Shown here: positions 24,587-60,603 of the stretch, one piece after another
Position numbering within the stretch: position 1 is the stretch's first letter
Layout of the letters: every line of letters begins with the position of its first letter
NCBI GenBank assembly: GCA_017461605.1
Contig: JAFTXN010000007.1
Span: forward strand, 62,001-126,000
Direction of reading: 5' to 3'
Origin: Bacteroidaceae bacterium
GTDB taxonomy: Bacteria; Bacteroidota; Bacteroidia; Bacteroidales; Bacteroidaceae
DNA: 64,000 nucleotides
Position numbers and translations under genes: made by a program
Notes under the pieces: model-generated
Seen by the model: only the letters and a program-made list of their open reading frames with translations
Database searches by the model: none
What the model was told of the DNA's origin: nothing

Positions 24587-24617
24587 CAAAGTTAGTGCAA
24601 GGCGAGTGCAAAACAAA
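24587..24617 (-). promoter_or_regulatory. Repeat-borne promoter of the NifU-GGGtGRT operon
   Basis: On the minus strand TTTG (24614-24617), exactly 19 bp, then TAACTTTG (24587-24594). It is formed by the outer edge of the inverted repeat at 24589-24664. Confidence 0.75.
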
Positions 24618-24664
24618 GCAAAAAGCCATTTTTTTGCTTTTTTTGCCGAGCCGCCGCCTAACTT
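24589..24664. repeat. Promoter-bearing inverted repeat (locus A)
   Basis: 76 bp with outer arms AAGTTAG and CTAACTT, subterminal GCAAGGCGAG and CCGAGCCGCCGCC, and an inner self-complementary AAAGCAAAAA/TTTTTTTGCTTT. A degenerate start of a second copy follows (AAGTGTGCAGGGCGAG, 24676-24691). It lies between the kinase-RapZ fusion and the NifU-like gene. Confidence 0.85.
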
Positions 24665-24703
24665 GCGCCTCGCGAAAGTGTGCAGGGCGAGTGTGTCCTG
24701 AAA

Positions 24704-26209
24704 TTATTCTTTAGGTTTTAGCACCTGTTTGATGCCTTGCTCGCGGTGACAGATGGCAACTTCGATGTTGTATTTTTGATGCAGATGTTCTGCCAAATGT
24801 TGTGCGCAGTAAACGCTGCGATGCTGACCTCCGGTACAGCCAAAGCTGAACATCAGATCGGTAAAACCACGTTGCAAATATCGCTCCACGTGTGCTTCCG
24901 CCAAGCGATAGATGCTTTGCAAGAAGAGCAGGATTTCTCCGTCTTCTTCCAAAAAACGGATAACCGGCTCGTCCAATCCTGTAAGTTGCTTGTAGGGGGT
25001 GTATCTACCGGGGTTGTGCGTGCTGCGACAATCGAAAACATATCCACCGCCATTTCCTGATTCGTCTTCGGGTATTCCTTGTTTGTAGCTAAAGCTGAAT
25101 ACTCTTATTTTCAGTTTCTTTGAAATCTCTTCTTCGAGTGAAGGTGTATGTTCTTTGTATGCGGGTTTTTCGTGGTTTGTACTTGTTTCTTGTACATTGC
25201 CTTCCCGCTCCACAAGGCGCGTCAGAACATTTTCCAAATATGGGTAGGGAGCAGCAACACCCACTTGTAAAAGTGTGTTGATGCTTTGTAGCGCAGGCGG
25301 AATGCTGTCAATGAAGTATTGTTTGCGTTCGAAGCGCCCTCTCAGGCCATAAGCGCCCAACACTTGCAGCAAACGGAATAGCACGAAGCGTTGCAAATCT
25401 TGCTTGAATTTCTCGGGATCGATGTCTACCAGTGTGGAAAGTTCAGCTATGTACTCTCCAATGAGTATATGCCGCAGTTTGTCCGAATAACGGGCTGAAG
25501 CCTGCCAAAGGAAAGATGCTACATCATACTGTAACGGACCGCATTTACCTCCTTGAAAATCTATGAAATATGGCATTTGTTCTTTGCCGACGAGCATCAC
25601 ATTGCGGGCCTGGAAATCGCGATACATGAAAGTACATTCTCCCATGGCGGACTTTACGAGGTCATCGGCCAATTGTTCAAAGCAATCTTCCAACTTTGTC
25701 TCGTCGATGGGCAAGTCGGTGGTGCGCAGGAAGCAATACTTGAAGTAGTGTAAATCAAAGAGTGCAGTGCGTTTGTCGAAATGTGTAGGCGAGAGCAGCG
25801 TGTTGAAGTCGAGTGCTTGTGCCCCGGTTACTTGTAAGTGGGGCAGCAGCCGAATGGTGCGTTTCAGCAACTCGATTTCTGCATTATCGTAAGCCCCGTT
25901 ATTGTCGCGTCCGTGGCTGAGAGCCTGATAGAGTGATACACCTCCTAAATCTGTTTGCAAATAGCAGGTTTCATCTGTGCTTACAGCCAGTATTTCGGGC
26001 ACGGGCAATCCTTTGGCGTGGAAATGCCGACTCAGACGGATGAAGCAACGATTTTCGTGCGTGTCAGGACTGATGACACCAATCACATTGCAACCTTCAG
26101 CATCGGTGAGACGTACGTAATGCCGATTGCTGCCGGCTTTTGGCAGGCTTTCTGTGTGTTTGGGTAAACATCCATGCCACTGCTCGTATAATTGTATGAG
26201 TTTCTGCAT
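24704..26209 (-). CDS. Fusion of an AmgK-like sugar kinase domain with a RapZ C-terminal domain
   Basis: 501 residues. The first 340 or so are an aminoglycoside-phosphotransferase-fold kinase: catalytic loop MYRDFQARNVML (about 196) and metal site YFIDFQGGKCGPLQYD (about 218), most like AmgK-type N-acetylmuramate/GlcNAc kinases. From about 365 to 490 is a RapZ-type C-terminal domain: KIRVFSFSYKQGIPED, GGYVFDCRSTHNPGR, FGCTGGQHRSVYCAQHL. In Enterobacteria the RapZ C-terminal domain senses glucosamine-6-phosphate and binds small RNAs; its usual N-terminal P-loop domain is absent here. A role in amino-sugar sensing coupled to salvage is inference. It lies 96 bp after rsmE. Confidence 0.85.
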   Translation of the reverse strand: MQKLIQLYEQWHGCLPKHTESLPKAGSNRHYVRLTDAEGCNVIGVISPDTHENRCFIRLSRHFHAKGLPVPEILAVSTDETCYLQTDLGGVSLYQALSHGRDNNGAYDNAEIELLKRTIRLLPHLQVTGAQALDFNTLLSPTHFDKRTALFDLHYFKYCFLRTTDLPIDETKLEDCFEQLADDLVKSAMGECTFMYRDFQARNVMLVGKEQMPYFIDFQGGKCGPLQYDVASFLWQASARYSDKLRHILIGEYIAELSTLVDIDPEKFKQDLQRFVLFRLLQVLGAYGLRGRFERKQYFIDSIPPALQSINTLLQVGVAAPYPYLENVLTRLVEREGNVQETSTNHEKPAYKEHTPSLEEEISKKLKIRVFSFSYKQGIPEDESGNGGGYVFDCRSTHNPGRYTPYKQLTGLDEPVIRFLEEDGEILLFLQSIYRLAEAHVERYLQRGFTDLMFSFGCTGGQHRSVYCAQHLAEHLHQKYNIEVAICHREQGIKQVLKPKE

Positions 26210-26305
26210 AAGGGATTTAAGGTGTGTTTATTCGATAATAAATATAGTTTATTGCATGTGTGCATATGAGCCCTTGTAGGAGGTTAATGCTGATGCTGTT
26301 TGTCC

Positions 26306-27052
26306 TCATGGCTGTTGGGCCAGATTGGTGATGTGTACTGCAGCCAAGGCTGCAGTCTCTGTACGAAGTCTGCTACGTCCCAAGCTGATCGACTGAAAGC
26401 CCGCAGCTTCAGCCTGGCGTACTTCGTCAAGACTGAAATCGCCTTCCGGTCCGATAAGGATGAGCACTTTTTGATTTTTCACTTTGTTTTGGCGCAACAG
26501 TGTGTCGAGTGAGGGCAAATTGTTGGCCGCTTCGGTATTTTCGCCCATGTTGTGACAATGTGCGATGTAACGTTTCCCATCAAAAGGCCGTGCGATGAAT
26601 TTCTTGAAATCGGTCATTTCGTTCACAGCCGGCAGGTGTGCTTTGTGGCTCTGTTTCATCGCTGAAATCACGATTTTTGTGATGCGTTCTGTCTTCAGCA
26701 CGCGCCGTTCTGAGTTTTGGCAGTTGAGGAACGAAAAGCTGTTGATACCTATCTCTGTTGCTTTTTCGACCAGCCATTCCATGCGGTCCATATTTTTTGT
26801 CGGTGCCACAGCCAGATGTATCTCGCCCATCCACGTTTGTACTCCCGGTGTGGAGCTTACTACGCTGATATGGCACTGTTTGGGTGATGCTATGGTGATT
26901 TCCGCTTCGTGAAAAAAGCCCATTCCATCGGTAACAAATATATGGTCGCCCTCTCTGAGACGCAACACGCGGATGGCGTGTCCGGCTTCTTCGGGGGGCA
27001 GCAATCCGCCGGTGGTAGCTTCGGGAGCATAGAACAAATGTATCTCTTTCAT
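26306..27052 (-). CDS. rsmE: 16S rRNA (uracil1498-N3)-methyltransferase
   Basis: SPOUT-class methyltransferase that modifies U1498 of 16S rRNA. From ATG 27052 there are 248 residues, a family-like length; upstream in-frame codons to 27166 overlap the previous gene. Visible are a PUA-like N-terminal part (HAIRVLRLREGDHIFVTDG), KNMDRMEWLVEKATEIG, the SAM-binding knot LILIGPEGDFSLDEV, and SLGRSRLRTETAALAAV. It lies 49 bp after the BFN-like gene on the same strand. Confidence 0.93.
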   Translation of the reverse strand: MKEIHLFYAPEATTGGLLPPEEAGHAIRVLRLREGDHIFVTDGMGFFHEAEITIASPKQCHISVVSSTPGVQTWMGEIHLAVAPTKNMDRMEWLVEKATEIGINSFSFLNCQNSERRVLKTERITKIVISAMKQSHKAHLPAVNEMTDFKKFIARPFDGKRYIAHCHNMGENTEAANNLPSLDTLLRQNKVKNQKVLILIGPEGDFSLDEVRQAEAAGFQSISLGRSRLRTETAALAAVHITNLAQQP

Positions 27053-27101
27053 ATCAAGATGTTGTATTTTCTGTTGAGGTGTTGGTGCTTCTGTCTTGTT
27101 G

Positions 27102-27680
27102 TTACGGATGTCTGTTGGCTTGTTGGCGCGCCTTGATTTCCTTGTGTAAGGTAGCAGCCAACTCATAGTTCTCTTCCGAGATAGCCACTTGCAGTGCCTC
27201 GTCCAGCAGTTGGTCGGTCATGGCCGGTAGCGGAAAAGCCACCTGACCATTGTCTTTGATCCACCCTTGTTGTTGTACGAAGTCGGAATGCGACATCAGC
27301 AGCGCACAATCCGTTCTTAATGCCAAGCACACGCCTTTGGTTACGCTGCAAGTCATGATGTGCCTTGAGCCTGTGTCTGCGAGCATTATCACGTCGGCAT
27401 GATAATGACCGGGGGCATCGGGCACAATGCGCACACATTCAATGCGAGCTTCCAATGATTTGAGTACTTGTAGCGCCAAGTCAATCTCATCAAAAGTTCC
27501 CACTTCAACGGCATTCTTCAGTGCTTCCACTTCATTATTTGTGATGAGCACCGGCAGATGCACCTCGCTTTCTGCATGCTTCAGCATCAGGATGTGCGCC
27601 TGCTTCAGGTGCGTTCCGCGTGTCAGATAGTGCACCTGCAAAGTGATGTCGTTGTGTATGCTCATGTTTGTGTCTATCAT
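27102..27680 (-). CDS. BFN-like (DUF151) nuclease domain with UVR tail
   Basis: 192 residues; ATG at 27665 is an alternative start five codons later. Residues about 10-140 resemble a divergent bifunctional-nuclease (BFN/DUF151) domain: LPVLITNNEVEALKNAV, a helix with VLKSLEARIECVRI, then CSVTKGVCLALRTDCALLMS. In the BFN family the corresponding positions form the SDALALALR-type acidic site, which here lacks the Asp pattern, so activity is doubtful. Residues 155-185 are a UvrB/UvrC interaction motif (ISEENYELAATLHKEIKARQ). Transcription would start at the repeat promoter at 27731. It heads the likely operon with rsmE. Confidence 0.65.
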   Translation of the reverse strand: MIDTNMSIHNDITLQVHYLTRGTHLKQAHILMLKHAESEVHLPVLITNNEVEALKNAVEVGTFDEIDLALQVLKSLEARIECVRIVPDAPGHYHADVIMLADTGSRHIMTCSVTKGVCLALRTDCALLMSHSDFVQQQGWIKDNGQVAFPLPAMTDQLLDEALQVAISEENYELAATLHKEIKARQQANRHP

Positions 27681-27730
27681 TTATATTTTTAAGCCTGCTA
27701 TACCTAAATGATAATTGCAGGACCACTTTG

Positions 27731-27738
27731 CAAAGATA
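27731..27738 (-). promoter_or_regulatory. -7 box at the edge of the tandem repeat (BFN-rsmE unit)
   Basis: TATCTTTG on the minus strand; no TTTG is present 19 bp upstream in this variant. The second tandem copy keeps the same box at 27815-27822. Confidence 0.6.
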
Positions 27739-27893
27739 GTGAAAGGTGAGCGGAAAGTTTACGAATGAGCTTGCGAAATTTGATAAACTTTCCCGAACCG
27801 CCTCCTATCTTATTCAAAGATAGTGAAAGGTGAGCGGAAAGTTTACGAATGAGCTTGCGAAATTTGATAAACTTTCCCGAACCGCCTTGAGAT
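27733..27893. repeat. Promoter-bearing inverted repeat, two tandem copies (locus B)
   Basis: Copy 1 is 27733-27811, with arms AAGATAG/CTATCTT and inner complement GGAAAGTTTA/TAAACTTTCC. Copy 2 begins at 27817 with an 84-bp period; its right end is degenerate (TTGAGATAATG). Apart from that end, the copies are identical over about 70 bp, implying recent duplication or gene conversion. The GAAAGG variant here differs from GCAAGG at loci A, C, D and E. Confidence 0.85.
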
Positions 27894-28023
27894 AATGATA
27901 AGACAAGCGATGGAACACTCAAAGTGTGATTAGGTAATATCATTATTATATTAGAAAATAGATGAGAAGCACTTTGATGTAGGCTGTTTTGAGGAAAGCG
28001 TTGGCAAAGTGCTTTCATTGAAA

Positions 28024-28085
28024 ATCTGCAGTGCTTGTAGAAAATTCTGCGAGCACTGCAAAAAAATCTGCAAGCACTGTAGAAT
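28024..28085. repeat. 21-bp phased dyad array, class A (locus 3)
   Basis: TGC cores at 28027, 28048 and 28069, exactly 21 bp apart. The first unit is in one orientation (TCTGCAGTGCTTGTAGA) and the next two in the other (CGAGCACTGCA, CAAGCACTGTAGA). Confidence 0.85.
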
Positions 28086-28301
28086 TTGGCCCGGGCCGTG
28101 TCGCGATTGAGGTGATGTGAGTGTGGGTTTGCGTCAGCCGAACAGGAGGACATCTCAACAGTTCGCTCTTCGTGGACATACGACGTGAGTATCGGTGAGG
28201 CAAGGTGGGGTTTTCGCTGTGCATTGCTTCATGATGAAACTCGCGAAAGAAAAAAAGCAAAACGCCACGTTCTTTTTCTTAACAGTATTCCGTATTTTTT
28301 G

Positions 28302-28309
28302 TATTTTTG
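28302..28309 (+). promoter_or_regulatory. -7 box of hpt
   Basis: TATTTTTG, about 85 nt before the hpt ATG at 28394. Confidence 0.55.
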
Positions 28310-28393
28310 CTGCGTGAAAACCTTGCCGCGTGCTGTTTCCTCTGAAATACCGATGGCAATAATGAGTTTCAATCACAAAGCAACCTATCTGAT

Positions 28394-28936
28394 ATGGATA
28401 ACATAAAAGTATTGGACAAAACATTTGCCATCTCTATCCCCGAGAGTCGCATCAGGGAGCGTGTGGCGGAACTTGGAGCAGCCATCAGTCGCGATTTGGA
28501 GGGTAAAAATCCGATATTCCTCGCAGTGCTCAACGGCTCGTTTGTTTTTGCCTCCGACCTGCTGCGAGCAGTCAGTATCCCCTGTGAAATATCTTTCATT
28601 CGCCTGGCTTCCTATGTAGGCACCTCCTCAACAGGAAATGTGAAGGAAGTGATGGGACTGAGCGAGGATTTGGAAGGTCGAACCGTGGTAGTGGTGGAAG
28701 ACATCATTGACTCCGGCCTCACCATGAAGGAGTTGCTCAACACGCTTCAGGCCAAGCATCCGGCTGAAATACGTGTCGCTTCGCTGCTCGTCAAGCCCGA
28801 AAATCTGAAGGTAAACCTCGACATCCCTTATTGTTGCTTCGAGATTCCCAACGACTTTATCGTGGGCTACGGACTCGACTATGATGGCTACGGCCGCAAC
28901 CTCAAGGATATTTATACCGTGGTTGAAGCAAAATAA
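28394..28936 (+). CDS. hpt: Hypoxanthine phosphoribosyltransferase
   Basis: Purine salvage: joins hypoxanthine or guanine to PRPP to give IMP or GMP. The 180 residues match the type I PRTase fold. Visible are the early ISRDLEGKNPIFLAVLNGSF (PPi loop region), the flexible-loop area SYVGTSSTGNVKE, the PRPP motif VVVVEDIIDSGLTMKEL, and the C-terminal FIVGYGLDYDGYGRNL. It is 27 bp upstream of adk, with which it forms a purine-nucleotide pair. Confidence 0.93.
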   Translation: MDNIKVLDKTFAISIPESRIRERVAELGAAISRDLEGKNPIFLAVLNGSFVFASDLLRAVSIPCEISFIRLASYVGTSSTGNVKEVMGLSEDLEGRTVVVVEDIIDSGLTMKELLNTLQAKHPAEIRVASLLVKPENLKVNLDIPYCCFEIPNDFIVGYGLDYDGYGRNLKDIYTVVEAK

Positions 28937-28963
28937 AGAAACGACAATAAAATCATACCATCA

Positions 28964-29533
28964 ATGAAAAACATTGTGATTTTCGGTGCTCCCGGTTCAG
29001 GAAAGGGAACACAGAGTGCTCTCCTCGTTGAGAAATACGGTTTCAAGCATATATCCACCGGCGATGTGCTGCGTGCGGAGATTAAAGCCGGAAGCGACCT
29101 CGGCAAGACCGCCCAAGCCTTCATCGACAAGGGACAGCTCATCCCCGACAGTCTGATGATAGACATCTTGGCAGCCACTTACGATGGCCTGCAGCCTTGT
29201 GACGGAGTGATATTCGACGGATTTCCTCGCACCATCCCGCAAGCCGAAGCCCTCAAGGTGATGTTGGCCGAACGTGGCACCGAGGTAGCTGGAATGTTAG
29301 AGCTCAGCGTGCCCGACGAAATGCTCACAGAGCGACTTATCAACCGTGGCAAGACCAGCGGACGCGCTGACGATAACGAAGAAACCATCAAGAAGCGCCT
29401 TGCCGTATACAACGAGCAGACAGCCCCCCTCATCGAGTGGTACGAAGCCGAAGGCAAGCGCCACGCCGTGAAGGGATATGGCACGTTGGAGGAAATCAAC
29501 GCCGCCCTGTGCGCAGTGATCGACCGGCTATAG
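28964..29533 (+). CDS. adk: Adenylate kinase
   Basis: Equilibrates AMP, ADP and ATP. The 189 residues are the short form lacking the zinc-type LID insertion. P-loop IFGAPGSGKGTQSALL, AMP-binding KHISTGDVLR, the core FDGFPRTIPQAEAL and the LID segment LINRGKTSGRADDNEE are seen. It is followed by a strong hairpin terminator, so hpt-adk is one unit and obg is probably separate. Confidence 0.96.
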   Translation: MKNIVIFGAPGSGKGTQSALLVEKYGFKHISTGDVLRAEIKAGSDLGKTAQAFIDKGQLIPDSLMIDILAATYDGLQPCDGVIFDGFPRTIPQAEALKVMLAERGTEVAGMLELSVPDEMLTERLINRGKTSGRADDNEETIKKRLAVYNEQTAPLIEWYEAEGKRHAVKGYGTLEEINAALCAVIDRL

Positions 29534-29557
29534 GGCACACATTCGCGCCCGACGACA

Positions 29558-29637
29558 TATCGAGACACAAGATATGAGGCAACACATTCGGGGTTGCACC
29601 CCGTCAGCTTATATCTTGTGTTTCGTTTTTTTGTATA
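29558..29637 (+). terminator. Terminator after adk
   Basis: Long stem ACACAAGATAT / ATATCTTGTGT enclosing a second GGGGTTGCACCCC hairpin, then TTTCGTTTTTTTG. Confidence 0.8.
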
Positions 29638-29702
29638 AGGAGCAAAAAGTAATTCTCCGGATTATCCAATCAATAAAATACGAAGAACAAACGCGTTAAG
29701 TT

Positions 29703-30866
29703 ATGGCAGAAAGCAATTTCGTTGACTATGTGAAGATATTTTGTCGCTCCGGCAAGGGCGGTCGAGGCTCAATGCACCTGCATCGTGCTAAATACCAGCC
29801 CAACGGAGGCCCCGATGGCGGTGACGGAGGTCGCGGCGGCCACGTCTATCTGCGTGGCAACCACAACTACTGGACGCTGTTGCACCTGCGCTACGAGCGT
29901 CACGTTTTTGCCGGACACGGAGGCAACGGGTCGAAATGCTGTTCGCATGGTTCCGATGGCGAGGACAAATACATCGACGTGCCTTGTGGCACTGTGGTGT
30001 ATGATGCAGAGACCGGAAAATACATTTGCGATGTCACCGAAGACGGACAAGTGGTGATGCTACTCAAGGGCGGCCGTGGCGGTTTGGGCAATTGGCAATT
30101 TCGTACCTCCACCAATCAGACGCCGCGCTATGCCCAGCCCGGTGAGCCCATGCAGGAGATGATGGTGATCCTCGAGTTGAAACTCTTGGCCGATGTCGGC
30201 TTGGTAGGCTTCCCCAATGCCGGAAAATCAACACTCCTGTCCAGCCTCTCGTCAGCGCGCCCCAAGATAGCCAACTACCCCTTTACCACCCTCGAACCCA
30301 GTTTGGGAATCGTGCCCTATCGCGACGGCAAATCCTTTGTTATGGCTGACATTCCCGGCATCATCGAGGGAGCCAGTGAGGGCCGCGGACTTGGTCTGCG
30401 CTTCCTGCGACACATTGAGCGCAACTCTCTGCTGCTCTTCATGGTGCCCGGCGACACCGACAACATCAAGCGTGAATACGAGATTCTGCTCGGCGAACTC
30501 AGTCGCTTCAATCCCGGCATGCTCGACAAGCACCGCATCCTGGCCGTCACCAAGAGCGACCTCCTGGACGACGAACTCATGGAGATGCTTCGCGAAGAGT
30601 TGCCCCACGACCTGCCTGTGGTGTTCATCTCTGCAGTGACGGGCTACGGACTTCAGCAGCTCAAGGACCTGCTTTGGCAGGAACTCAACAGCGAGAGCAA
30701 CAAACTGCAAGCCATCACCGAAGGCGGTAGCATTGTGCATCGCGATCGCGACGTGGCCGCCTTTGCCGGCGATTTTGCCGATTGGCAGGACGATGATTGG
30801 GAGGATGATGACATCGATGTGGACGACCTCGAAGAATACGATATCGAAGAGCTCGAAGATGAATGA
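29703..30866 (+). CDS. obg: Obg-family GTPase
   Basis: Ribosome-assembly and stress GTPase acting on the large subunit. The 387 residues show the Gly-rich Obg fold (about 1-158, with [14 protein letters not shown] and [13 protein letters not shown]), G1 [12 protein letters not shown]3 [17 protein letters not shown]4 VTKSDL, and a strongly acidic C-terminal tail (about 350-387, Asp/Glu-rich). The tail overlaps the pgeF start by 8 bp, indicating translational coupling. Confidence 0.95.
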
Positions 30867-31692
30867 CACCGTGCAACCCCAATTGCTCGAATATCCACTG
30901 CATGCCGACGTGCGCGCTTTCAGTACCCAGCGAGATGGTGGAGTGGGACAGGGCAACTATGCCACGTTCAACCTCACGCACTATTGTGGTGACCACCCCC
31001 ACAACGTAGCCCGTCACCGTGCAGCCCTGTGTCGTGTGCTGGGCATTGCTGACGAAGCCTTGCACCTGCCACATCAGACCCATGGCACGGGTGTGCTGAA
31101 AATCGACGCTGCACATCTCAGCCGTTCGACAGACGAGCAAGCCCAACGCATGCACGGCATCGACGCCCTCATCACCGATATGCACCACCAATGCATCGGC
31201 GTATCCACGGCCGACTGCATTCCTGTGCTACTCTACGACCCCACCCACCATGCCATAGCTGCCATACATGCCGGGTGGCGTGGCACGGTGGCCGACATTG
31301 TCGGCTGTACCATACGAGCCATGAAGAAGCACTATGGCACACAGTGTCACCACCTCCGCGCTGTGATAGGTCCCGGCATCGGGGTGGAAGCCTTTGAAGT
31401 GGGTGATGAGGTATACGAAGCCTTTACCAAAGCCGGTTTTCCCATGGAGCAAATCGCGCGTCGCATGCCATGCATACTCACCCCCCGATCAGGCCATGCA
31501 GCCGGCACATCCGAAAAGTGGCACATCGACCTATGGGCAGCCAACACCCACCTGCTGCAAGCCTCCGGCCTGCCTCTGCACCACATTATGGTGAGCGGCA
31601 TCTGCACCTATATGCACCACGAAACCTACTTCTCGGCGCGCCGTCTGGGCATCAAGAGCGGACGCATCTTCACCGGCATCATGCTGCGCTGA
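30859..31692 (+). CDS. pgeF: Peptidoglycan editing factor / YfiH-type Cu-oxidase-like protein
   Basis: 277 residues from ATG 30859, which overlaps the last codons of obg by 8 bp. The family (YfiH, DUF152) carries a Cys/His metal site and in E. coli removes mis-incorporated L-Ser from peptidoglycan precursors; homologues also act on purine nucleosides (LACC1/FAMIN). Visible are PHQTHGTGV, the Cys motif [13 protein letters not shown], the His motif [11 protein letters not shown], and [14 protein letters not shown]. It is the last gene of the plus-strand unit and is followed by a 768-bp gene-free stretch. Confidence 0.9.
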
Positions 31693-32460
31693 GCGCATGC
31701 ACCCTACGAACATGTGCCTTGTTGCACAACAAGAACGTAAAAGCCAACCCTTGTTGGCACCGTATAGAGATTTTATTCAACGCAGCGCACGATTGCAGTA
31801 AATGCAAGCCAAAATCTTTCTGCCATACTTCCTGCCATACTACTTCCTTCTGATTTTCAGTGATTACCGGTCCAAAATGGCAGAATGGCAATAAAAATCA
31901 TGAAAACTCATAGTGCGCGCGTGCGCGTGTGTGTTGGACAAGTGCAACAAAGAGGTACAGAAAAAATAAAGAGAAAACAAATAATAAGCACACACCTCAA
32001 ATTGTGCAACGCGTATAGGTACAAAAAATACCCCGTAGAAGGACGAGGCAACCTAATGTTTTCACAACGGAATAATCCTTATTGTGAATTGCTTCAGAAA
32101 AGTAAGGGCAAAACATACTGTCAAGATAGAAGTGCAACAATAGTTCCCCTCTCTCACACCTTTTCGCTACGCTCAAAGTCGTGAGCAAGGGAAACTGTTG
32201 TTGCACTTCTATCTTGACAGTATGCGAATTGTTCTTACCAATGCAAAGATAATAATCTGAAAGCATTTTTGCAGCTGTGGGAGAGGGCTCGTTTTTCTCT
32301 TGTGTAATCGCGTGCTCTCTCTTGTTTCGCTGTGCGTGTCTCCTCCGCTTGGGGCAGAGAGCGAGGGGGAGGGGTGTGCGGCTTCCTCCCCTCGCTCGCT
32401 CACGTTTGGTGTGAGGGGGCACTTTCTTCTTTGTTGTTCTGTCTCTCCGCCGCCTCTCTC
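31693..32460. other. Gene-free convergent region with a 111-bp hairpin
   Basis: 768 bp between convergent pgeF and lpdA. It contains a short partial dyad (TTCACAA...TTGTGAA, 32059-32086), the long hairpin at 32114-32224, and a GC-rich dyad near lpdA (AGCGAGGGGGAGG / CCTCCCCTCGCT, 32367-32400). Open frames here lack family resemblance and cross the hairpin, so I do not call genes. Confidence 0.65.
32114..32224. repeat. Long near-perfect inverted repeat
   Basis: The first 27 bp of each arm are perfectly complementary (CATACTGTCAAGATAGAAG... against ...CTTCTATCTTGACAGTATG). The arms extend to about 36 bp with two mismatches, and the loop itself pairs further (CTCAC/GTGAG). Origin is unclear: terminator, small inverted-repeat element or recent inverted duplication. 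I see no target-site duplication. Confidence 0.85.
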
Positions 32461-39487: not shown

Positions 39488-39549
39488 AGGAAAGGTGGGC
39501 TAACTCACAACATCCCTCGCAGATTTTTTCTCGGGCTTTGCAGGATTTA

Positions 39550-39614
39550 CTGGCAGGCCTTGCCAGTTTTTTGGCAAGCGGTGCCACTTTTTTGGCAAGG
39601 CCTGCCAGTTTTTG
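39550..39614. repeat. 21-bp phased dyad array, class B (locus 4)
   Basis: TGGCA cores at 39551, 39572 and 39593, exactly 21 bp apart. Units are TGGCAGGCCTTGCCA, TGGCAAGCGGTGCCA and TGGCAAGGCCTGCCA with T-rich linkers. It lies in the 278-bp gap between the menaquinone and glycine-cleavage operons; the rest of that gap holds only the lplA promoter. Confidence 0.88.
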
Positions 39615-46204: not shown

Positions 46205-46235
46205 CAAAGTTAGTGCAAGGCGAGCGGAGAACAAA
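46205..46235 (-). promoter_or_regulatory. Repeat-borne promoter of mazG-men operon
   Basis: TTTG (46232-46235), 19 bp, TAACTTTG (46205-46212) on the minus strand; leader about 20 nt. Confidence 0.75.
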
Positions 46236-46398
46236 GCGAAAACGCAGTTTTCAGCTTTTTCTCCCGAGCCGCAGCCTAACTTGGGCACAGCGAAAGTGTG
46301 CAAGGCGAGCGGAGAACAAAGCGAAAACGCAGTTTTCAGCTTTTTCTCCCGAGCCGCAGCGTCACTTATACGCAGACCAAAGTCGTGCAAGGCGAGAG
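46207..46398. repeat. Promoter-bearing inverted repeat, 2+ tandem copies (locus C)
   Basis: Copy 1 is 46207-46282 (AAGTTAG...CTAACTT; inner GAGAACAAAGCGAAAAC against GTTTTCAGCTTTTTCTC). Copy 2 starts near 46292 (period 85 bp) with the edge changed to AAAGTGTG, so its -7 box is lost. A third, partial copy starts near 46379. Copies within the locus share the same inner stem. Confidence 0.88.
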
Positions 46399-46489
46399 AG
46401 CGTTCAAGCACCGGTCCCGGATTTTGTTCCTGTCCTTGGGTGTGTGGCTTACACTTTGTTCGAAAAACGACCTCTGTATGTGCAAGAAT

Positions 46490-46556
46490 TTACAGTGCTT
46501 GCAGAATTTTCTACGAGCACTGCAGAAAATTCTACAAGCACTGCAGATTTTCGCAG
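46490..46556. repeat. 21-bp phased dyad array, class A (locus 5)
   Basis: TACA/TACG/TACA cores at 46491, 46512 and 46533, 21 bp apart, with a degenerate fourth near 46553. The first unit reads CAGTGCTTGCAGA; the next two read in the other orientation (GAGCACTGCAGA, CAAGCACTGCAGA). Confidence 0.85.
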
Positions 46557-48973: not shown

Positions 48974-49004
48974 CAAAGTTAGTGCAAGGCGAGCGCAGCG
49001 CAAA
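48974..49004 (-). promoter_or_regulatory. Repeat-borne promoter of DUF4494-yggS
   Basis: TTTG (49001-49004), 19 bp, TAACTTTG (48974-48981) on the minus strand; leader about 55 nt. Confidence 0.75.
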
Positions 49005-49087
49005 AGGAAAATACCTTTTTCTTTTGCACGGCCGAGCCGCAGCCTAACTTGCGCAAGGCGAAAGTGCACAAGGCGAGCGCAGCGCAA
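48976..49087. repeat. Promoter-bearing inverted repeat, one full and one partial copy (locus D)
   Basis: Copy 1 is 48976-49050 (AAGTTAG...CTAACTT; inner GCAAAAGGAAAA against TTTTTCTTTTGC). The partial second copy (from about 49060) has AAAGTGCACAAGGCGAG at its edge, without a -7 box. Confidence 0.85.
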
Positions 49088-49212: not shown

Positions 49213-49243
49213 TAGTATAAAACCTTAAATCAAAGATGTGAGT

Positions 49244-52919: not shown

Positions 52920-52981
52920 TTATCATTATAGTGATACGTTCTTATCATTATAGTGATAAGTTCTTATCATGCGCATGATAA
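52920..52981. repeat. Three dyads at 22-bp spacing
   Basis: TTATCATTATAGTGATAC, TTATCATTATAGTGATAA and TTATCATGCGCATGATAA start at 52920, 52942 and 52964, separated by GTTC. Arms are TTATCA/TGATAA with a 6-bp centre; the third is a perfect palindrome. This looks like a cluster of protein-binding sites. Confidence 0.85.
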
Positions 52982-53599: not shown

Positions 53600-53652
53600 C
53601 GAAAATGCCGCAACCATTTTCCAGCAGTTAGGAATGAGGTTTGCGGCATTGT
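53600..53652 (-). terminator. Hairpin after trxA
   Basis: Arms AATGCCGCAA and TTGCGGCATT about 25 bp apart, followed on the minus strand by TTTTCG. It is a weak intrinsic terminator or partial attenuator. Confidence 0.6.
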
Positions 53653-53667
53653 TCGTGTAGGATTGTG

Positions 53668-53985
53668 TTATGCGAGCAGCGCTTCGATTTTCTCAACGAA
53701 GACATTCTTGGTTGCGGCTCCGACGTGCTTGTCGACCACTTCGCCATTCTTGATGAAGAGTACGGTGGGCACGTTGCGGATGCCGTATTTGCTGGTGAGG
53801 TCGTCGTTGTCGTCGACGTCGCATTTTCCGATGTTCACCTTGCCTGCATATTCTTCAGCAAGCTCTTCGATGATGGGAGCAATCTTCTTGCAAGGGCCAC
53901 ACCATGTGGCGGAGAAATCGAGCACGATGGGGAGTCCTTCTGCTACCCATGCTTCATAATTTTGGTCAGTTACAATCTTTTCCAT
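53668..53985 (-). CDS. trxA: Thioredoxin
   Basis: 105-residue cytoplasmic thiol-disulfide reductase. The active site is ATWCGPCKKIAPI (Cys29 and Cys32), with the cis-Pro segment GIRNVPTVLFIKNGE. Length is that of canonical thioredoxin. The gene is preceded by three copies of the promoter-bearing repeat; the nearest gives a perfect promoter at 54043-54073. Confidence 0.96.
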   Translation of the reverse strand: MEKIVTDQNYEAWVAEGLPIVLDFSATWCGPCKKIAPIIEELAEEYAGKVNIGKCDVDDNDDLTSKYGIRNVPTVLFIKNGEVVDKHVGAATKNVFVEKIEALLA

Positions 53986-54042
53986 GTTTCGGTTGTGTTT
54001 TTGGTTAGTACTATTGTGTTTGTTTTACATTCGTTTCCTTTG

Positions 54043-54073
54043 CAAAGATAGTGCAAGGCGAGTGCAGGACAAA
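54043..54073 (-). promoter_or_regulatory. Repeat-borne promoter of trxA
   Basis: TTTG (54070-54073), 19 bp, TATCTTTG (54043-54050) on the minus strand; leader about 50 nt. Confidence 0.78.
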
Positions 54074-54298
54074 AGGAAAACGTGTTTTTCTTTTTCATGC
54101 CGAGCCGCTGCCTATCTTGGGCGGAAGCCAAAGTGTGCAAGGCGAGTGCAGGACAAAAGGAAAACGTGTTTTTCTTTTTCATGCCGAGCCGCCGCCTATC
54201 TTGGGCGAAAGCCAAAGTGTGCAAGGTGAGTGCAGGACAAAAGGAAAACGTTTTTTTCTTTTGCATGCCGAGCCGCTGCCTATCTTGGGCGGAAGCCA
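54045..54298. repeat. Promoter-bearing inverted repeat, three tandem copies (locus E)
   Basis: GCAAGG markers at 54053, 54137 and 54221 give an 84-bp period. Copy 1 (54045-54118) has AAGATAG...CTATCTT; copies 2 and 3 begin AAAGTGTG and so lack the -7 box. The inner stem (GGAAAACGTGTTTTTC) is common to all copies at this locus but differs from other loci. It fills most of the 324 bp between dnaE and trxA. Confidence 0.9.
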
Positions 54299-54309
54299 TG
54301 CAAAGCGGT

Positions 54310-57300
54310 TTAGCTCTCTTCCGGTTCCTCTGTCAATTTCTTGACATTGCTTTCTTCGACCTTCTTGTCGTTGATGTAGATGGTTGCGCCCGGCTTCCGC
54401 GTGACGAAATTCATAAAGTCCTTGTTTACATTTACCTTGCAGCCTTTAGCATCCAGGGAAATCGTTGTTGCGCTTTCGATATCGATGATTCCGATGCTGA
54501 GGTTGGTGCTTCCAGGGTTTTGTTCAATTATTTCACAAAGGTCGGAGCAGAACGAAGCATCGAGGTTCTCAAGTGGAAGTTCGATACTGATTTTTTCAAT
54601 CTTCTGTTCCTTGATGTCTGCCAGAAACTCCACATTTTGCACCGTGAGTCGCAAGTCGTCGGCATTCCATCGGCCGGGCTGTACGGCTCCTGTGAAGAAG
54701 AGGAAATTGCCTTCGTGCATGTAGCCGCTCCATTTTGCCCAATCTTCACCGAAGAACGCAATTTCACCGGGCCCTTCGTAATCTTCAATCTTGACGATAC
54801 CGTACGCCTTACCGTTTTTGCTTTGTCCGGTGCGGATGCCTGTTACGATTCCGCCAAAGTTGAGCGTTTTGCCCAGCAGGGGCTGCAGATTGTCGCGGTC
54901 GCCCACCTTTGGCATGCTGGCGTTGCAAACATATTTGATGATGCTCTCGTATTCGTCCAATGGGTGGCCGGAAATGTAGATGCCGATGAGCTCGCGCTCC
55001 TTGTTGAGACGCTCAAGCTCCGTCCATTGCTGATATACTGTCGGTGGCTGCGGTTTCACGATTTCCACACAGTCCATATCTCCAAACAGCGTGTTGACGG
55101 ACGACTGACGGTCTTGCTGGAATCGGATGCCGTATTTCATCAGGACATCAAGGAATGTTTCGCCCTTCTCATTGGTCGCGGCATATTGGTCGCGCTTTAT
55201 CTCAGGGAAGCAATCGAGTGCACCTGCGATGGCGAGGCTTTCGAGACTCTTCTTGTTGCAGGCATTCAGGTTGATGCGTTCCACGAAGTCGTAGATACTC
55301 TTGAAGGGACCGTTCGCGTCGCGCTCTTCCAAAATCGCATCTACGGCGGCGTCGGACACGTTCTTGACGGCGCTCAATCCGAAACGAATGTCGCCCACGT
55401 GGTTTACACCGAATTTTCTGAAACTCTCGTTGACGCAAGGACCTAAAGTCTGTACGTCCATGGCACGGCATTCGTCCATGAGTTTTGAGATTTCGGTGAT
55501 ATTATTCTTGTTGCGGCTCATGTCTGCCGCCATATATTGTGCGGGATAGTTGGCCTTGAGGTAAGCCGTCTGATAGGCCACCCAGGAATAGCAGGTGGCA
55601 TGGCTCTTGTTGAAAGCGTACGAAGCAAATGCCCGCCAGTCGTTCCAGATTTTCTCCAGCATTTTCGGGTCGTGTCCGTTGGCTCTTCCGCCTTCGACAA
55701 ACTTGGGGTACATTTGGTTCAGCTTGTCGATGAGCTTTTTACCCATGGCTTTGCGCAACGCATCACTCTCTCCGCGAGTGAAGTCAGCGATGACGCGCGA
55801 CAGCAGCATGACTTGCTCCTGATACACAGTGATGCCATACGTGTCCTTCAAGTATTTCTCCATGCACGGAAGGTCGTATGTGATTTTCTCCCTACCATGT
55901 TTGCGAGCGATAAATTTCGGGATGTATTGCATGGGTCCCGGGCGGTAGAGCGCATTCATGGCGATGAGATCCTCGAATGTGGAGGGCTGAAGTTCGCGTA
56001 GGTATTTCTGCATTCCGGGTGACTCGAACTGGAACGTACCTATGGTTTTGCCATCGCAGTAGAGCTGGTAGGTGGCTGCGTCCTCGATGCTGATTTCGTC
56101 AATATCGAGTTCAATGCCGAGAGAAAGCCTGATGTTTTCCACGGCCTCACGGATGATGGACAGTGTCTTCAGTCCCAAAAAGTCCATCTTGATTAGGCCG
56201 GTTTCTTCAATCACGCTGCCTTCGTATTGTGTGCAACGCAGCTTTTCGCCGGTGGTCTTGTCGTCTGCTGTCGAGATGGGTACCCAATCAGAGATGTCGT
56301 CGCGACAAATGATAGTACCACAGGCGTGAACACCGGTGTTACGCACATTTCCCTCCAGCATTTTGGCATAGCGGATAGTGTCATGTAATAGAGGGTCGGG
56401 ACTCGACTCTGCAGCTTGCAGTTCGGGAATGGCGGCAATGGCATTGGGCAGATTCATCTTGGGCACCTTTCCGTCTTTTCCTTCGGGCAGTTTGTCCGGA
56501 ATGAGCTTGCAGAGTTTGTTACTGATGTCCAGAGGCAGCTTCTGTACGCGTGCCACATCCTTGAGCGCCATCTTGGTGGCCATTGTTCCGTATGTGATGA
56601 TGTGGGCCACCTTCTCCGCTCCATATTTTTGAGTAACCCAGTTGAGCACTCTGCCTCGGCCGTCATCGTCGAAATCGACGTCGATATCAGGCAGCGAGAT
56701 ACGGTCGGGATTTAGGAAACGCTCGAACAGCAAATCGTACTTAATGGGGTCGATTTGTGTGATGCCCAAGCAATAGGCCACGGCACTGCCGGCTGCCGAG
56801 CCACGGCCGGGACCTACGGAAACGTCGAGTTCTTTGCGAGCTACGTTGATATAGTCCTGCACAATGAGGAAGTAACCCGGAAAACCCATGGTCTTCATGA
56901 TGTGCAACTCGAAGTTGATGCGCTCTTTCACCTCATCACTGAGCGGATTTCCATATCGGCGTTCAGCTCCTTCGTAAGCCAGTTTGGACAAGTAGTCGGC
57001 TTCGAGCTTGATGCGGTAAAGCTTGTCGTAACCTCCCAGTTTCTTTATCTTATCGTGCGCATCCTCTTCCGATAGTACCACATTGCCGTTCTCATCGCGT
57101 GTAAACTCGTTGAAAAGATCTTCTTCGCTCAGCCGTTTGCGATACTCCTCTTCTGTTCCAAATTCTTCGGGGATGTCGAAGTTGGGCATGATGGGCCCAT
57201 GATCTATGCTGTAGGTCTCAATTTTGTCAGCGATTTCACAAGTGTTGGAAAGGGCTTCCGGAATGTCGGCAAAGATTTCGTTCATCTCCGCCTGTGTTTT

Positions 57301-58224
57301 GAACCACTCCTGCTTGGTGTAGAGCATTCGGTTCGGGTCATTCAAGTCTCTTCCGGTCGACAGGCAGATGAGCCGGTCGTGTGCCTCAGCATTTTCTTCG
57401 TCAACGAAGTGAACGTCGTTGGTGCAGATGAGTTTTACGTTGTGCTTACGCGCAAATTCGATGATGACGTTGTTGCATCTCTCTTGCAATGCATACGTTT
57501 CGTGATTGGCACGTTGGGCCGGGTCCGGTACTTTGTGGCGTTGCAGCTCCAGGTAGTAGTCGTCCCCAAACAGATTCTTAAACCACTGTACAGTCTGTTC
57601 GGCAGCTTCGACGTTGTCTTCCAAAATCTTTCTGGGCACTTCACCGCCAAGACACGCCGAACTCACGATGAGTCCTTCGTGATATTTCTCCAAGTCAGCA
57701 TGGTCGGTGCGTGGACGCATATAGTATCCGTCTACCCATGCTCGCGACACGAGTTTTATCAGATTGTGATAGCCCTTTTCGTTCTTGGCAAGCACCACGA
57801 GGTGCCATCCCGACTGGTCTTGTCGCCCTTCCTTCAAGTGTTTGCCACGTCGTGCTACGTACATTTCACACCCAAAGATGGGCTTGAAATCAACAATTCG
57901 CTGTTGTTCGGCCAGCTCTTTGCGTGTAGCTGCAGCAATGTCTTCCGGACTTTTGTTAGCTTCCTTATCTTTGTCAGGCTCATAGCTACCTTCGTTGATG
58001 GCTTGCAGCTTTTCGTTGAGTCTTTTTACAGCCTTCTTGGCGTTAGCCTTGATTTTATTGGTATAGTTGAAAAACTCCTTGATGCCCATCATGTTTCCAT
58101 GGTCGGTCAGCGCCATGCCACGCATGCCGTCGCGCAAGGCTTTGTCCACCAACTTGGAGATGGAGGCCTGTCCGTCGAGAATGGAGTATTGGGAGTGAAC
58201 GTGTATGTGTATGAAGTCGTGCAT
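54310..58224 (-). CDS. dnaE: DNA polymerase III alpha subunit
   Basis: Replicative polymerase, 1304 residues. PHP domain at the N terminus (HIHVHSQYSILDGQASI, ALTDHGNMMGI), polymerase core with GPGRGSAAGSAVAYCLGI and the catalytic Asp pair in LPDIDVDFDDDGRG (about residue 510), NALYRPGPMQYIPKFIARKHG (split), a helix-hairpin-helix and an OB-fold near 1060-1160 (FGGIVTGIRT). It is a DnaE1-like single-subunit enzyme with no PolC exonuclease insertion. A -7 box lies at 58260. Confidence 0.97.
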   Translation of the reverse strand: MHDFIHIHVHSQYSILDGQASISKLVDKALRDGMRGMALTDHGNMMGIKEFFNYTNKIKANAKKAVKRLNEKLQAINEGSYEPDKDKEANKSPEDIAAATRKELAEQQRIVDFKPIFGCEMYVARRGKHLKEGRQDQSGWHLVVLAKNEKGYHNLIKLVSRAWVDGYYMRPRTDHADLEKYHEGLIVSSACLGGEVPRKILEDNVEAAEQTVQWFKNLFGDDYYLELQRHKVPDPAQRANHETYALQERCNNVIIEFARKHNVKLICTNDVHFVDEENAEAHDRLICLSTGRDLNDPNRMLYTKQEWFKTQAEMNEIFADIPEALSNTCEIADKIETYSIDHGPIMPNFDIPEEFGTEEEYRKRLSEEDLFNEFTRDENGNVVLSEEDAHDKIKKLGGYDKLYRIKLEADYLSKLAYEGAERRYGNPLSDEVKERINFELHIMKTMGFPGYFLIVQDYINVARKELDVSVGPGRGSAAGSAVAYCLGITQIDPIKYDLLFERFLNPDRISLPDIDVDFDDDGRGRVLNWVTQKYGAEKVAHIITYGTMATKMALKDVARVQKLPLDISNKLCKLIPDKLPEGKDGKVPKMNLPNAIAAIPELQAAESSPDPLLHDTIRYAKMLEGNVRNTGVHACGTIICRDDISDWVPISTADDKTTGEKLRCTQYEGSVIEETGLIKMDFLGLKTLSIIREAVENIRLSLGIELDIDEISIEDAATYQLYCDGKTIGTFQFESPGMQKYLRELQPSTFEDLIAMNALYRPGPMQYIPKFIARKHGREKITYDLPCMEKYLKDTYGITVYQEQVMLLSRVIADFTRGESDALRKAMGKKLIDKLNQMYPKFVEGGRANGHDPKMLEKIWNDWRAFASYAFNKSHATCYSWVAYQTAYLKANYPAQYMAADMSRNKNNITEISKLMDECRAMDVQTLGPCVNESFRKFGVNHVGDIRFGLSAVKNVSDAAVDAILEERDANGPFKSIYDFVERINLNACNKKSLESLAIAGALDCFPEIKRDQYAATNEKGETFLDVLMKYGIRFQQDRQSSVNTLFGDMDCVEIVKPQPPTVYQQWTELERLNKERELIGIYISGHPLDEYESIIKYVCNASMPKVGDRDNLQPLLGKTLNFGGIVTGIRTGQSKNGKAYGIVKIEDYEGPGEIAFFGEDWAKWSGYMHEGNFLFFTGAVQPGRWNADDLRLTVQNVEFLADIKEQKIEKISIELPLENLDASFCSDLCEIIEQNPGSTNLSIGIIDIESATTISLDAKGCKVNVNKDFMNFVTRKPGATIYINDKKVEESNVKKLTEEPEES

Positions 58225-58259
58225 TGTCTATGGGGTGTTTGTCTGTGTGAGGTTGAGAC

Positions 58260-58267
58260 AAAGATAT
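58260..58267 (-). promoter_or_regulatory. -7 box of dnaE
   Basis: TATCTTTG on the minus strand, about 28 nt leader to ATG 58224. Confidence 0.65.
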
Positions 58268-58306
58268 GCTCAATGTTTGTGGGGATGTGATATGTAGGAG
58301 GGGAAT

Positions 58307-60430
58307 CTAATTGTAGAAATTCCAAGAAAGTCCGAACCGTATTACCAAACCGTTGGCAGGGTAGTGGGGGGTGATAAAATAGTTTCCTCCTTTGCTGCTG
58401 CGGTTGATGTGTGAGCCCATGACGTAGAAGCGGAAATTGCGCAGGTGCAGGTTGGCATATACATTGATGAAAGGATAATTGCCAATCTTCACACGTTGTT
58501 CTGCATCTTGTACGCAGAATTGTCCGACCATGGGAGAATAGGCCGGAGCATAATAGCGGGTGAAGTAACGCATATCCGCACCAATCTCCGTGGTAAGTAC
58601 CTTCGCAATCTTGAAGCCTAAATACACGTTGGTATAGGCGTTGAAGGCCGGCAATGGGAGTACGTCTTTGTCTGAGGTGGCTTGATAAGTGAGTTCGTTT
58701 TCCCAATTAAAGATACCCCAATGGAAATCCTGTCGCAATGTAGCTCCAATGAGTTGTATGTTCTTGTTGTGTTGTTGTGGCGATACGCCGAAGTGTGCCA
58801 ATGGTACTCCGGCTGCAGAGGTATAGGGTGTTTGTTTTTCCTGAAAGTAGAGATAGTTTTGCAGGGTCTCCACGAATACGTTCAGACGGGTGTCGCGATA
58901 GCGCAGTGTGCCACCGATACGTGAGCGCATCACTTTCTTGAAATCGTTGTCCCACCATGCGTTGCGTCCGTGGTAGTGGTTATAGTAGAACATGGGTGAC
59001 TCGTTGCGAATATAGCCTTCGGCCTTGATCAGCAGGGAGTCGCGGCGCAACGGAATGTTGAAACTGAGGTTTCCTTCCACGTTGAATTCTCCCCAATCGC
59101 TTCCGGTGGTTCGCAGCTCGCCCAGCACGTTGTAGTGGAAGATTTTTCCTTGTTGCTTCATCAGTTGCGCACCCACGGTGAAGTAGTTGTAGCTGTATGC
59201 CGTGGCAATCTTGTTTTCGTTGGGCAGTGTGAAGCGATTGAATTCGTGCCGTGCGAAAAGTCGCATACCCGATTTCACCCATCGGTTGAAGCCTTCGCGC
59301 AGTTCGAAAGCCAAAGTGTTGGTCACATAAATGTTCTTGGTGAAATCGTTGGCCGTGTCTCCGGGCAGATAATAGTCTGCAAAATAGTTGTCAAGCAGGG
59401 CATTGCTCACCAAGCGGCGATTGTTGTGGTCTACGCGCAATGTGTGGAGAAATCCGGCCACAGGCACAAAGGTCGACTTCAGTGCAACAGAGTCGGTGTT
59501 TGTGCTGTCGGCTTGGGCGGTGGTGCTGTCGGCTTGCACTTCCACTCCGGGTAAATTCAGCCGGTTTCTCGATTCTCGTTTTACCACATTACCATCGCTG
59601 TCGGTGTAGCGGAGAAATCCCACGTCGTAGCGCTGAGTGAAATAGAGGTAGTTCACATTCAGACGATTCCATGTCTTGCTGAGTCGGGTCGGCATGTCGG
59701 CCGTTCCATATTTCTCGGGAAAACTTTGGGGGTCGGTGATGTAGAGGTCGCTCTCGAGTCCGCCGTTTTCGGCAGTCTTCAGGTGATTCGCCGAATAGGC
59801 CAGGTGCATCTTGTAGCGCTCATCCAGATAGGATGCAAACACCGTACCGCCAAACTGCGATGTGCTCTGACTGGGGTAATAGCCTCGTCCGTATAGATAG
59901 TCCAAACGGAAACCCATGCCCAGCTTTTTACCGGCATTTACGGCAAAGATTGCGTTGATGCGGTCCTCGCCATTGGTTTTGTTGCCGCACTTCTGATAGG
60001 TGATGTTTGTGATCGGCGATTTGGTGTTGGTGAACACAAGGTTGCCGGGCTGCTGTATGAAGAAATCGTAGGGGCGTTCGAAGATGAACTGGTTGCCTCC
60101 ACCTTTCTCCCAGCGGTCATAGAAGATGCGACTCTGACGAGGCGAACCCAAATTGCCGAGTGTGTTGTATCTGAACGTACTTCCTTCAGTGAAATTGCTG
60201 TTCTGAAAACCATGCAGCAGTGTGTCGGGAGTTGTCGGGTGAATGTCTCCAAAACGCTCATCGATGTTCCACATGTAAAAGCCTGTGGGCACATCCTCCT
60301 TCTCCGTGCTGTCATTGTCAGCCCAGCTGCTTCTGATCTTATTATCAGACGTTATGATGTTCTGTGCTGTAGTGTTGATGGAAACCGACAGCACAGCAAA
60401 AAATCCGATGATTGCTCTTATTCTTTTCAT
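58307..60430 (-). CDS. Putative outer-membrane porin (Bacteroidota family)
   Basis: 707 residues with a signal peptide (IIGFFAVLSVSINTTAQ) and many alternating aromatic beta strands of the kind forming a large barrel. Recognisable pieces are TGFYMWNIDERFGDIHP, GNLGSPRQSRIFYDR, YDFFIQQPGNLVFTNTKSPI, and a C-terminal strand ending in LSWNFYN (aromatic near the end, as in outer-membrane proteins). The family is annotated 'putative porin'; the cargo is unknown. The ATG is only 8 bp from the nearest -7 box. Confidence 0.85.
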   Translation of the reverse strand: MKRIRAIIGFFAVLSVSINTTAQNIITSDNKIRSSWADNDSTEKEDVPTGFYMWNIDERFGDIHPTTPDTLLHGFQNSNFTEGSTFRYNTLGNLGSPRQSRIFYDRWEKGGGNQFIFERPYDFFIQQPGNLVFTNTKSPITNITYQKCGNKTNGEDRINAIFAVNAGKKLGMGFRLDYLYGRGYYPSQSTSQFGGTVFASYLDERYKMHLAYSANHLKTAENGGLESDLYITDPQSFPEKYGTADMPTRLSKTWNRLNVNYLYFTQRYDVGFLRYTDSDGNVVKRESRNRLNLPGVEVQADSTTAQADSTNTDSVALKSTFVPVAGFLHTLRVDHNNRRLVSNALLDNYFADYYLPGDTANDFTKNIYVTNTLAFELREGFNRWVKSGMRLFARHEFNRFTLPNENKIATAYSYNYFTVGAQLMKQQGKIFHYNVLGELRTTGSDWGEFNVEGNLSFNIPLRRDSLLIKAEGYIRNESPMFYYNHYHGRNAWWDNDFKKVMRSRIGGTLRYRDTRLNVFVETLQNYLYFQEKQTPYTSAAGVPLAHFGVSPQQHNKNIQLIGATLRQDFHWGIFNWENELTYQATSDKDVLPLPAFNAYTNVYLGFKIAKVLTTEIGADMRYFTRYYAPAYSPMVGQFCVQDAEQRVKIGNYPFINVYANLHLRNFRFYVMGSHINRSSKGGNYFITPHYPANGLVIRFGLSWNFYN

Positions 60431-60438
60431 TCCGACGA

Positions 60439-60446
60439 CAAAGATA
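60439..60446 (-). promoter_or_regulatory. Repeat-borne -7 box next to the porin ATG
   Basis: TATCTTTG only 8 bp from the ATG; transcription from it would be nearly leaderless. A second intact box at 60523-60530 would give a leader of about 85 nt. Confidence 0.55.
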
Positions 60447-60603
60447 GTGAAAGGCGAGCGTAAAGTTTGAAAGTGAGCTTGCGAATTTTCAAAAACTTTG
60501 CCGAGCCGCCTCCTATCTTATTCAAAGATAGTGAAAGGCGAGCGTAAAGTTTGAAAGTGAGCTTGCGAATTTTCAAAAACTTTGCCGAGCCGCCTCTTTT
60601 ACT
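60441..60603. repeat. Promoter-bearing inverted repeat, two tandem copies (locus F)
   Basis: Copy 1 is 60441-60519 (AAGATAG...CTATCTT; inner AAAGTTTGAAAG against TTTTCAAAAACTTT). Copy 2 starts at 60525 (period 84 bp), its right edge degenerate. Both keep TATCTTTG. It shares the GAAAGG variant with locus B. Confidence 0.88.

Follow-up and report, generated by a model that had tools for sequence, protein, structure and literature searches.

What is the inverted repeat that stands immediately upstream of six functionally different genes in this stretch of DNA, and does it bring them their promoters? The window, i.e. the whole stretch that was analysed (64,000 nucleotides), covers positions 62001-126000 of C4 in assembly G000, a Bacteroidales MAG of 2,062,558 bases that is 81% complete. 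A first-pass annotation had described a repeat at six loci, each ahead of a minus-strand gene, and had read it as a portable promoter that may co-regulate unrelated genes. The six copies are present: a covariance model, R1, finds the gene-proximal unit of each of them, all on the minus strand and at E≤5.2e-20 (Table 1), and a check made without the model finds the edge motif 8 times in the window, where shuffles predict 0.04 matches. R1 was built from 22 units, all of them carrying the promoter box described below and the units of the six window copies among them; box-less units may have been missed because the model was built from box-bearing ones. At loci A, C, D and E the sequence reads TTTG exactly 19 nt before TAnnTTTG, as had been claimed. 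The names given to the downstream genes are backed by Pfam for BFN, MazG, DUF4494, thioredoxin and Porin_10, whereas the NifU_N match falls under the Pfam cut-off. The repeat is inverted, as described, but the palindrome is imperfect and its mismatches are conserved; the six loci are real, but the element occurs genome-wide on both strands, and its restriction to the minus strand is a local accident. Moreover, units are repeated in tandem at four of these loci, a feature that had been overlooked; the extra units are the upstream copies in Table 1, and TRF reports arrays with a period of 84-85 bp at four of the six loci.

Table 1. Repeat units in the window. Coordinates are window positions; the last column gives the downstream gene and the distance to its ATG.
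Unit	Place and type	Coordinates	Strand	R1 score (bits)	-7 box	Gene, distance to ATG
A	gene-proximal	24587..24664	-	92.3	TAACTTTG at 24587-24594	NifU-like gene, 46 nt
B1	gene-proximal, TTTCAC subtype	27731..27811	-	76.5	TATCTTTG	BFN-domain gene, 50 nt
B2	upstream tandem copy (84 bp)	27815..27888	-	41.2	intact	
C1	gene-proximal	46205..46282	-	93.8	TAACTTTG	mazG, 26 nt
C2	upstream copy	46292..46367	-	67.9	broken, CACACTTTCG	
D	gene-proximal	48974..49050	-	84	TAACTTTG	DUF4494 gene, 61 nt
E1	gene-proximal	54043..54118	-	86.3	TATCTTTG	trxA, 57 nt
E2	upstream copy	54129..54202	-	65.7	broken, CACACTTTGG	
E3	upstream copy	54213..54286	-	54.7	broken, CACACTTTGG	
F1	gene-proximal, TTTCAC subtype	60439..60519	-	78.2	TATCTTTG	Porin_10 gene, 8 nt
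F2	upstream copy	60523..60604	-	54.4	intact	
F3	upstream diverged copy	60608..60685	-	36.5	broken, TATCTCTC	

By the model, a unit is about 61-83 nt long. It opens with AAGnnTAG, the left arm; the core, which varies in sequence but is self-complementary, is flanked by two GC blocks, GGCTCGG before it and CRCTCGCC, followed by TTGCAC or TTTCAC, after it; and the unit closes with TAnnTTTG, the -7 box. The sigmaA promoter of Bacteroidota has a -33 element, TTG or TTTG, about 19 nt upstream of this box. In the repeat, a TTTG is often present 19-20 nt before the box, in the 3' part of the core; this distance is 19 or 20 nt in 55 of 80 gene-proximal units and 23 or 24 nt in 12 more. The -7 consensus of Flavobacterium is given as TAnnTTTG at -12 to -5 in PMC9723704, and the same sequence lies just upstream of the gene in 75 of the 80 gene-proximal units, at a median of 31 nt from the ATG. 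We infer that the gene-side edge of the unit is a working sigmaA promoter.

The palindrome is well supported by pairing. In an alignment of 150 units (149 distinct), 92.0% of the cells pair, against 78.5% in shuffles and 38-50% in slid copies; the same alignment holds 365 double changes (123 in shuffles) and reaches a covariation score of 0.341 (0.122), values that are favoured by an alignment fitted to that structure and inflated by the relatedness of the units. The central regions form more stable folds than their shuffles do (mean z -2.9, with 88 of 143 below -2), and the 80 gene-proximal cores fall into 22 clusters at 0.75 likeness, most of which are self-complementary. The left arm pairs with the local box at 509 of 560 positions, where the best of 5000 shuffles gives 463, and pairing is full in 47 of the 80 units; part of this match is due to the descent of two or three subfamilies. 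Conserved mismatches are kept inside the stem. Outer units do not fold significantly worse than inner ones, with -18.6 kcal/mol for the proximal and -17.2 for the most distal full unit in 45 arrays (p 0.10).

In the 2.06 Mb of G000 there are at least 147 R1 matches at E≤0.005 and at least 149 at E≤0.5, both being lower bounds, as 150 of 957 candidates were scored, and one palindrome entered on both strands. Cores that are exact or have one mismatch number 99 (38 on the plus and 61 on the minus strand). The G000 unit set was defined as the R1 matches together with the cores having at most one mismatch, and these merge into 86 clusters. The window and 68 further stretches (257 kb) hold 159 R1 matches at E≤1e-4, a few of which are the opposite strand of the same palindrome. 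The genes behind the arrays are functionally mixed and include genes of replication, translation and tRNA. Three paralogous genes (MKLRILL...) that have the same leader each stand behind an array, at G000 C4:15111, C9:160576 and C9:325010.

Placement relative to genes was the point on which the promoter reading had been staked, random placement being named as the contrary outcome, and enrichment upstream of starts is what was found: for 78 of the 86 gene-side edges in G000, an ORF that starts with ATG and encodes at least 100 aa begins no more than 150 nt away (median 31 nt), against 17 of 86 on the mirror side. In the genome collection (114 loci), among the matches listed, the same holds for 78 of 85 unit edges, at a median distance of 30 nt, and for 12 of 71 on the mirror side, a count that includes loci of the sister genome G019 and of the genus and leaves out four edges near locus ends. 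Core-bearing edges in which no unit was recognised behave in the same way among the matches listed for the collection (23 of 28; mirror 9 of 22). The eight remaining G000 edges were inspected. Three precede shorter ORFs of 71, 98 and 81 aa; one lies 16 nt before a tRNA-Arg gene (C9:32684; L199 1110-1201) and one is separated by 9 nt from a TPP riboswitch aptamer, which a thiS-like ORF follows (C7:50321; L188 1336-1438). At another, an aminotransferase-like start follows after a further unit, and at the next the start comes after a long leader (gene names read by eye). The eighth, at C10:152897 (L163), has no box, and a plain TATCTTTG promoter is found about 200 nt on; this boxless unit looks like a fossil. 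At the other extreme, the box is 8, 7 and 7 nt from the ATG at window 60430-60439, G000 C9:346730 and C9:80995, respectively, and, provided that the ATG is correctly assigned, these three messages would have almost no leader.

Within the arrays, the state of the box depends on the position of the unit. In the 80 G000 arrays (143 units, model coordinates), TAnnTTTG is intact in 10 of 63 upstream units, against the 75 of 80 gene-proximal ones; in multi-unit arrays the gene-proximal box is intact in 43 of 45. Disarming of the upstream box is not obligatory, because these 10 units stay intact, and 6 of them belong to the TTTCAC subtype. The upstream lesions are of several kinds. Among the 63 G000 units (one of the 143 units was unparsed), TA or its spacing is lost with TTTG kept in 22, both are lost in 14, the G is lost in 13 and TTT in 4. 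For 27 upstream units of G019 the corresponding numbers are 16, 4, 6 and 0, with 1 intact, and for 41 units of other genomes 14, 6, 10 and 8, with 3 intact; the loci of G019 and of the collection were picked by exact core, so that their proximal boxes tend to be intact through this choice. Loss of the upstream box through different lesions would be the sequence signature of selection against extra promoters. Of 23 adjacent pairs of units with like cores and an intact proximal box, 19 differ in the box, and the per-base change in these pairs is 0.228 in the box, 0.174 in the left arm, 0.076 in the left GC block, 0.023 in the core and 0.016 in the right GC block. The ratio between the box and the 14 bases adjoining it (0.228 against 0.016) may be taken as the strongest sign of selection that the sequences offer. 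Among upstream boxes whose next spacer has G as its first base, the usual lesion is loss of TA or of its spacing, which suggests selection against extra promoters.

Comparison with the sister genome G019 bears on the exchange of units. An orthologous site was found there for 37 of the 86 G000 arrays (48 regions and three gene loci were searched), with a mean of 84.5% identity downstream. In the 35 site pairs that could be parsed, the box agrees in 27; the cores are alike (≥0.8) in 10 and dissimilar (<0.65) in 19. The box was misparsed at C10:141559/L362 and perhaps at C9:34196/L350. The mean likeness of the proximal cores is 0.68, against 0.61 for random pairs, 9% of which reach 0.8. Array positions persist at many sister promoters, and the proximal hairpin is often different; some of these pairs may not be one array by descent, because their likeness is just modestly above random. 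Three loci were read for the order of arrival. At C10:181945 the proximal core of G000 is identical to that of unit 2 in G019, whose box, behind another unit, is TAACTTTT; at recA the distal unit is common to both genomes (0.84) and the proximal units differ; at leuS, where G000 carries an additional unit, G019 shows no more than the right arm and TACCTTTG. All three could also have come about through slippage, recombination or loss. The unit at leuS has a right arm on either side, which would suit a target duplication but also a tandem duplication.

Orthologs of recA, leuS and ychF are present in 35, 38 and 41 of 41 genus genomes, and 30 loci of each were read. At ychF, arrays are found in G000, G019, G033, G014 and G016; TAnnTTTG lies near the same place with no array in G001, G062, G061, G010, G004 and G022, and the other loci have no clear box. 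Several genomes likewise have a box and no array at leuS. At such genes, the position of the promoter is older than the array or independent of it. The notion that the unit is simply the promoter is not supported by this comparison, in which several relatives have TAnnTTTG at the ortholog without the unit, nor by the finding that most upstream boxes are broken.

Exact cores were found in 20 of 61 genomes, including that of the window. Within its genus 19 of 37 genomes have them, each with between 1 and 51 copies; outside the genus they occur in 1 of 24. R1 matches occur in at least 19 of 197 Bacteroidales genomes and in at least 16 of 148 genera, with stricter filters and 24 candidates per genome scored. 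Units from other families follow the same plan, and 10 of the 13 examined precede an ATG-ORF of more than 100 aa within 150 nt. Core matches in Limisphaerales and Verrucomicrobiales MAGs (L070, L105), which have no unit match or a weak one (L105, E 9e-5), may be due to chance or to a binning error.

We propose that these are promoter-bound palindromic repeats that rebuild the promoter and are probably mobile. Copies of a unit would spread among promoters, either through ectopic recombination between the arms that units share or through a putative transposase; a unit would arrive at or beside the -7 box, each arrival would rebuild the promoter, and the older promoter would be pushed upstream, where a second live promoter would be selected against. 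As the host promoter would be left unbroken, the repeat could live at promoters. Upstream boxes that end in TTT and another base would be accounted for if units arrived immediately in front of the final G of the box. In a more specific form, a single-stranded hairpin, imperfect and with conserved mismatches, would enter the melted transcription bubble just before the last G of the box or beside the box, its arm would rebuild the box, and arrays would grow on the gene side as an ordered record of arrivals, with the outermost unit the oldest; we give this form a low probability. The mode of copying, and any effect on expression, are inferred. The earlier idea of a portable or copied module is retained in so far as the edge is a sigmaA-type -7 box and sister units differ at the same promoters, which fits copying, but the unit is not simply a promoter. 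No transposase, target duplication or insertion event was shown for the units, and genes for Y1 transposases, the one type searched for, do not track copy number. The fast change of the left arm between adjacent units (0.174) counts against the proposed model, which does not predict it, and arrays may just as well have stayed at shared promoters because their function is selected. The repeats front dozens of genes in G000 and would be a natural experiment in how promoters can be occupied without harm; in Bacteroidales they would have consequences for annotation and for the prediction of promoters. Units are also present in a cultured carrier, Prevotellamassilia timonensis Marseille-P2831T (loci L099 and L124), which makes the question testable.

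The main rival is a cis-regulatory array, in which the unit is the site of a putative DNA-binding protein that recognises the GGCTCGG and CTCGCC blocks, upstream units act on one promoter and are kept by selection on expression, and movement is secondary. We regard it as a serious possibility, although a doubtful one. It would account for the conservation of the GC blocks and of pairing in upstream units that have lost the box, and for the persistence of arrays at the 37 orthologous sites of G000 and G019; the functional mixture of the genes, the free variation of cores between sisters, and the near relatives that have no array at the same genes, with counts from 0 to 51 exact cores within the genus, speak against it. 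The spacing of units, which in G000 are often tandem, points both ways: it is tight in that genome, at 84-86 bp and also at 73-75 bp, near 8 and 7 helical turns, but the spacings of other genomes include 77-80 and 82-83 bp, which are not whole turns, so that strict helical phasing is suggested in G000 and not elsewhere. The genes downstream of arrays in other genomes resemble the G000 set in 10 of 83 cases, against 17 of 595 background ORFs, two of the ten being actually from G019 (L130, L142), and this enrichment may merely reflect the conserved first genes of operons. A conserved regulon is weakly indicated by these numbers, and so is the co-regulation of unrelated genes suggested by the first-pass annotation.

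Two other explanations were considered. Neutral palindromes could arise at promoters, and stay paired, through slippage, template switching and gene conversion, with no agent or function, the box lesions being simple decay. Local duplication would produce the near-identity that like units of one array show, and palindrome correction can keep arms complementary; however, a box that changes 14 times as often as the adjoining 14 bases is not what decay would produce, the conserved mismatches of the stem are kept, and proximal units at sister sites come from different core families, and we find this explanation very improbable. The strong covariation of the stem would also be expected of a structured RNA that acts in transcripts as a leader, attenuator or terminator. 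Such an RNA is, in our opinion, extremely improbable: no Rfam family matches window 24000-61500 at E≤1, the unit lies upstream of the expected start, and three of the six window arrays appear, from the ORF list, between divergent genes, where readthrough across them would not be expected.

The proposed promoter-rebuilding repeat is akin to mobile promoters in its action and to REPs or MITEs in its form, and it matches no known kind tested. Bacteroidales are known for invertible promoters, which combine inverted repeats with a TAnnTTTG-type promoter; here the box lies in an arm and not between the arms, and the orientation to the gene is nearly constant, and an invertible promoter was rejected on the position of the box and on the 78 of 86 edges that face a gene. 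Matus-Garcia et al. reportedly described putative mobile promoters in 2012 (Promoter propagation in prokaryotes). With these the repeat shares a promoter-bearing sequence that recurs ahead of unrelated genes and is missing from the corresponding sites of relatives, and like promoter sequences do stand before mixed genes in the 86 clusters. It differs in that the unit is a covarying palindrome, in its tandem arrays with one live box, and in that the position of the promoter can predate the unit: six relatives have TAnnTTTG but no array at ychF. At some loci, though, the box does change with the unit. Terminal inverted repeats, as in MITEs, are present, the arms pairing at the 509 of 560 positions given above.

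REPs, as described in PMC3733652, are of 20-40 bp and carry a GTAG or CGTC tag; REP/RAYT elements resemble the repeat as high-copy imperfect intergenic palindromes that possibly spread as hairpins (same source). The units studied here, in contrast, are of 61-83 nt, have no constant tag, do not occur beside Y1 genes and are placed at promoters. The foot AAGnnTAG yields GTAG just in the AAGGTAG type, and 7 of 80 units have the full match. No unit was found at E≤1 in four Y1 transposase loci, and Y1 genes are carried by 6 of the 12 genomes of the genus that have 6 or more cores and by 12 of the 25 that have fewer, the genomes being incomplete. Mobilisation by a RAYT was rejected, as Y1 genes do not track cores and no unit lies beside the Y1 loci. 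A lone Y1-type transposase gene is located behind typA in G000 C10 (L376 2400-2864), in a stretch that has no unit of the family at E≤1.

BrickBuilt, a MITE of Porphyromonas gingivalis, is according to PMC4596501 composed of 23-nt repeats without spacers, has 19 copies at 49-591 nt from genes and fires both ways. It is similar as an intergenic repeat of Bacteroidales with tandem structure and inverted ends, the promoter activity being BrickBuilt's (PMC4596501), whereas the units described here are 84-bp palindromes that face one gene at about 30 nt. A published description of this repeat was not recognised in the literature searched, whose reach left out most subscription papers.

The window also holds other repeats. 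A second palindromic family with 21-nt units (TGCAGTGCTTGTAGAA...) is found at 7615-7681, 28023-28090 and 46487-46554, and also beside arrays of G000 and G019; a third 21-nt palindromic repeat (GGCAGGCCTGCCA) is intergenic at 16820-16903 and 39546-39613. Finally, a 50-nt inverted repeat, 88% complementary and with an 11-nt loop, lies at 32114-32224, and a short tandem array with a 22-nt unit at 52920-52981.
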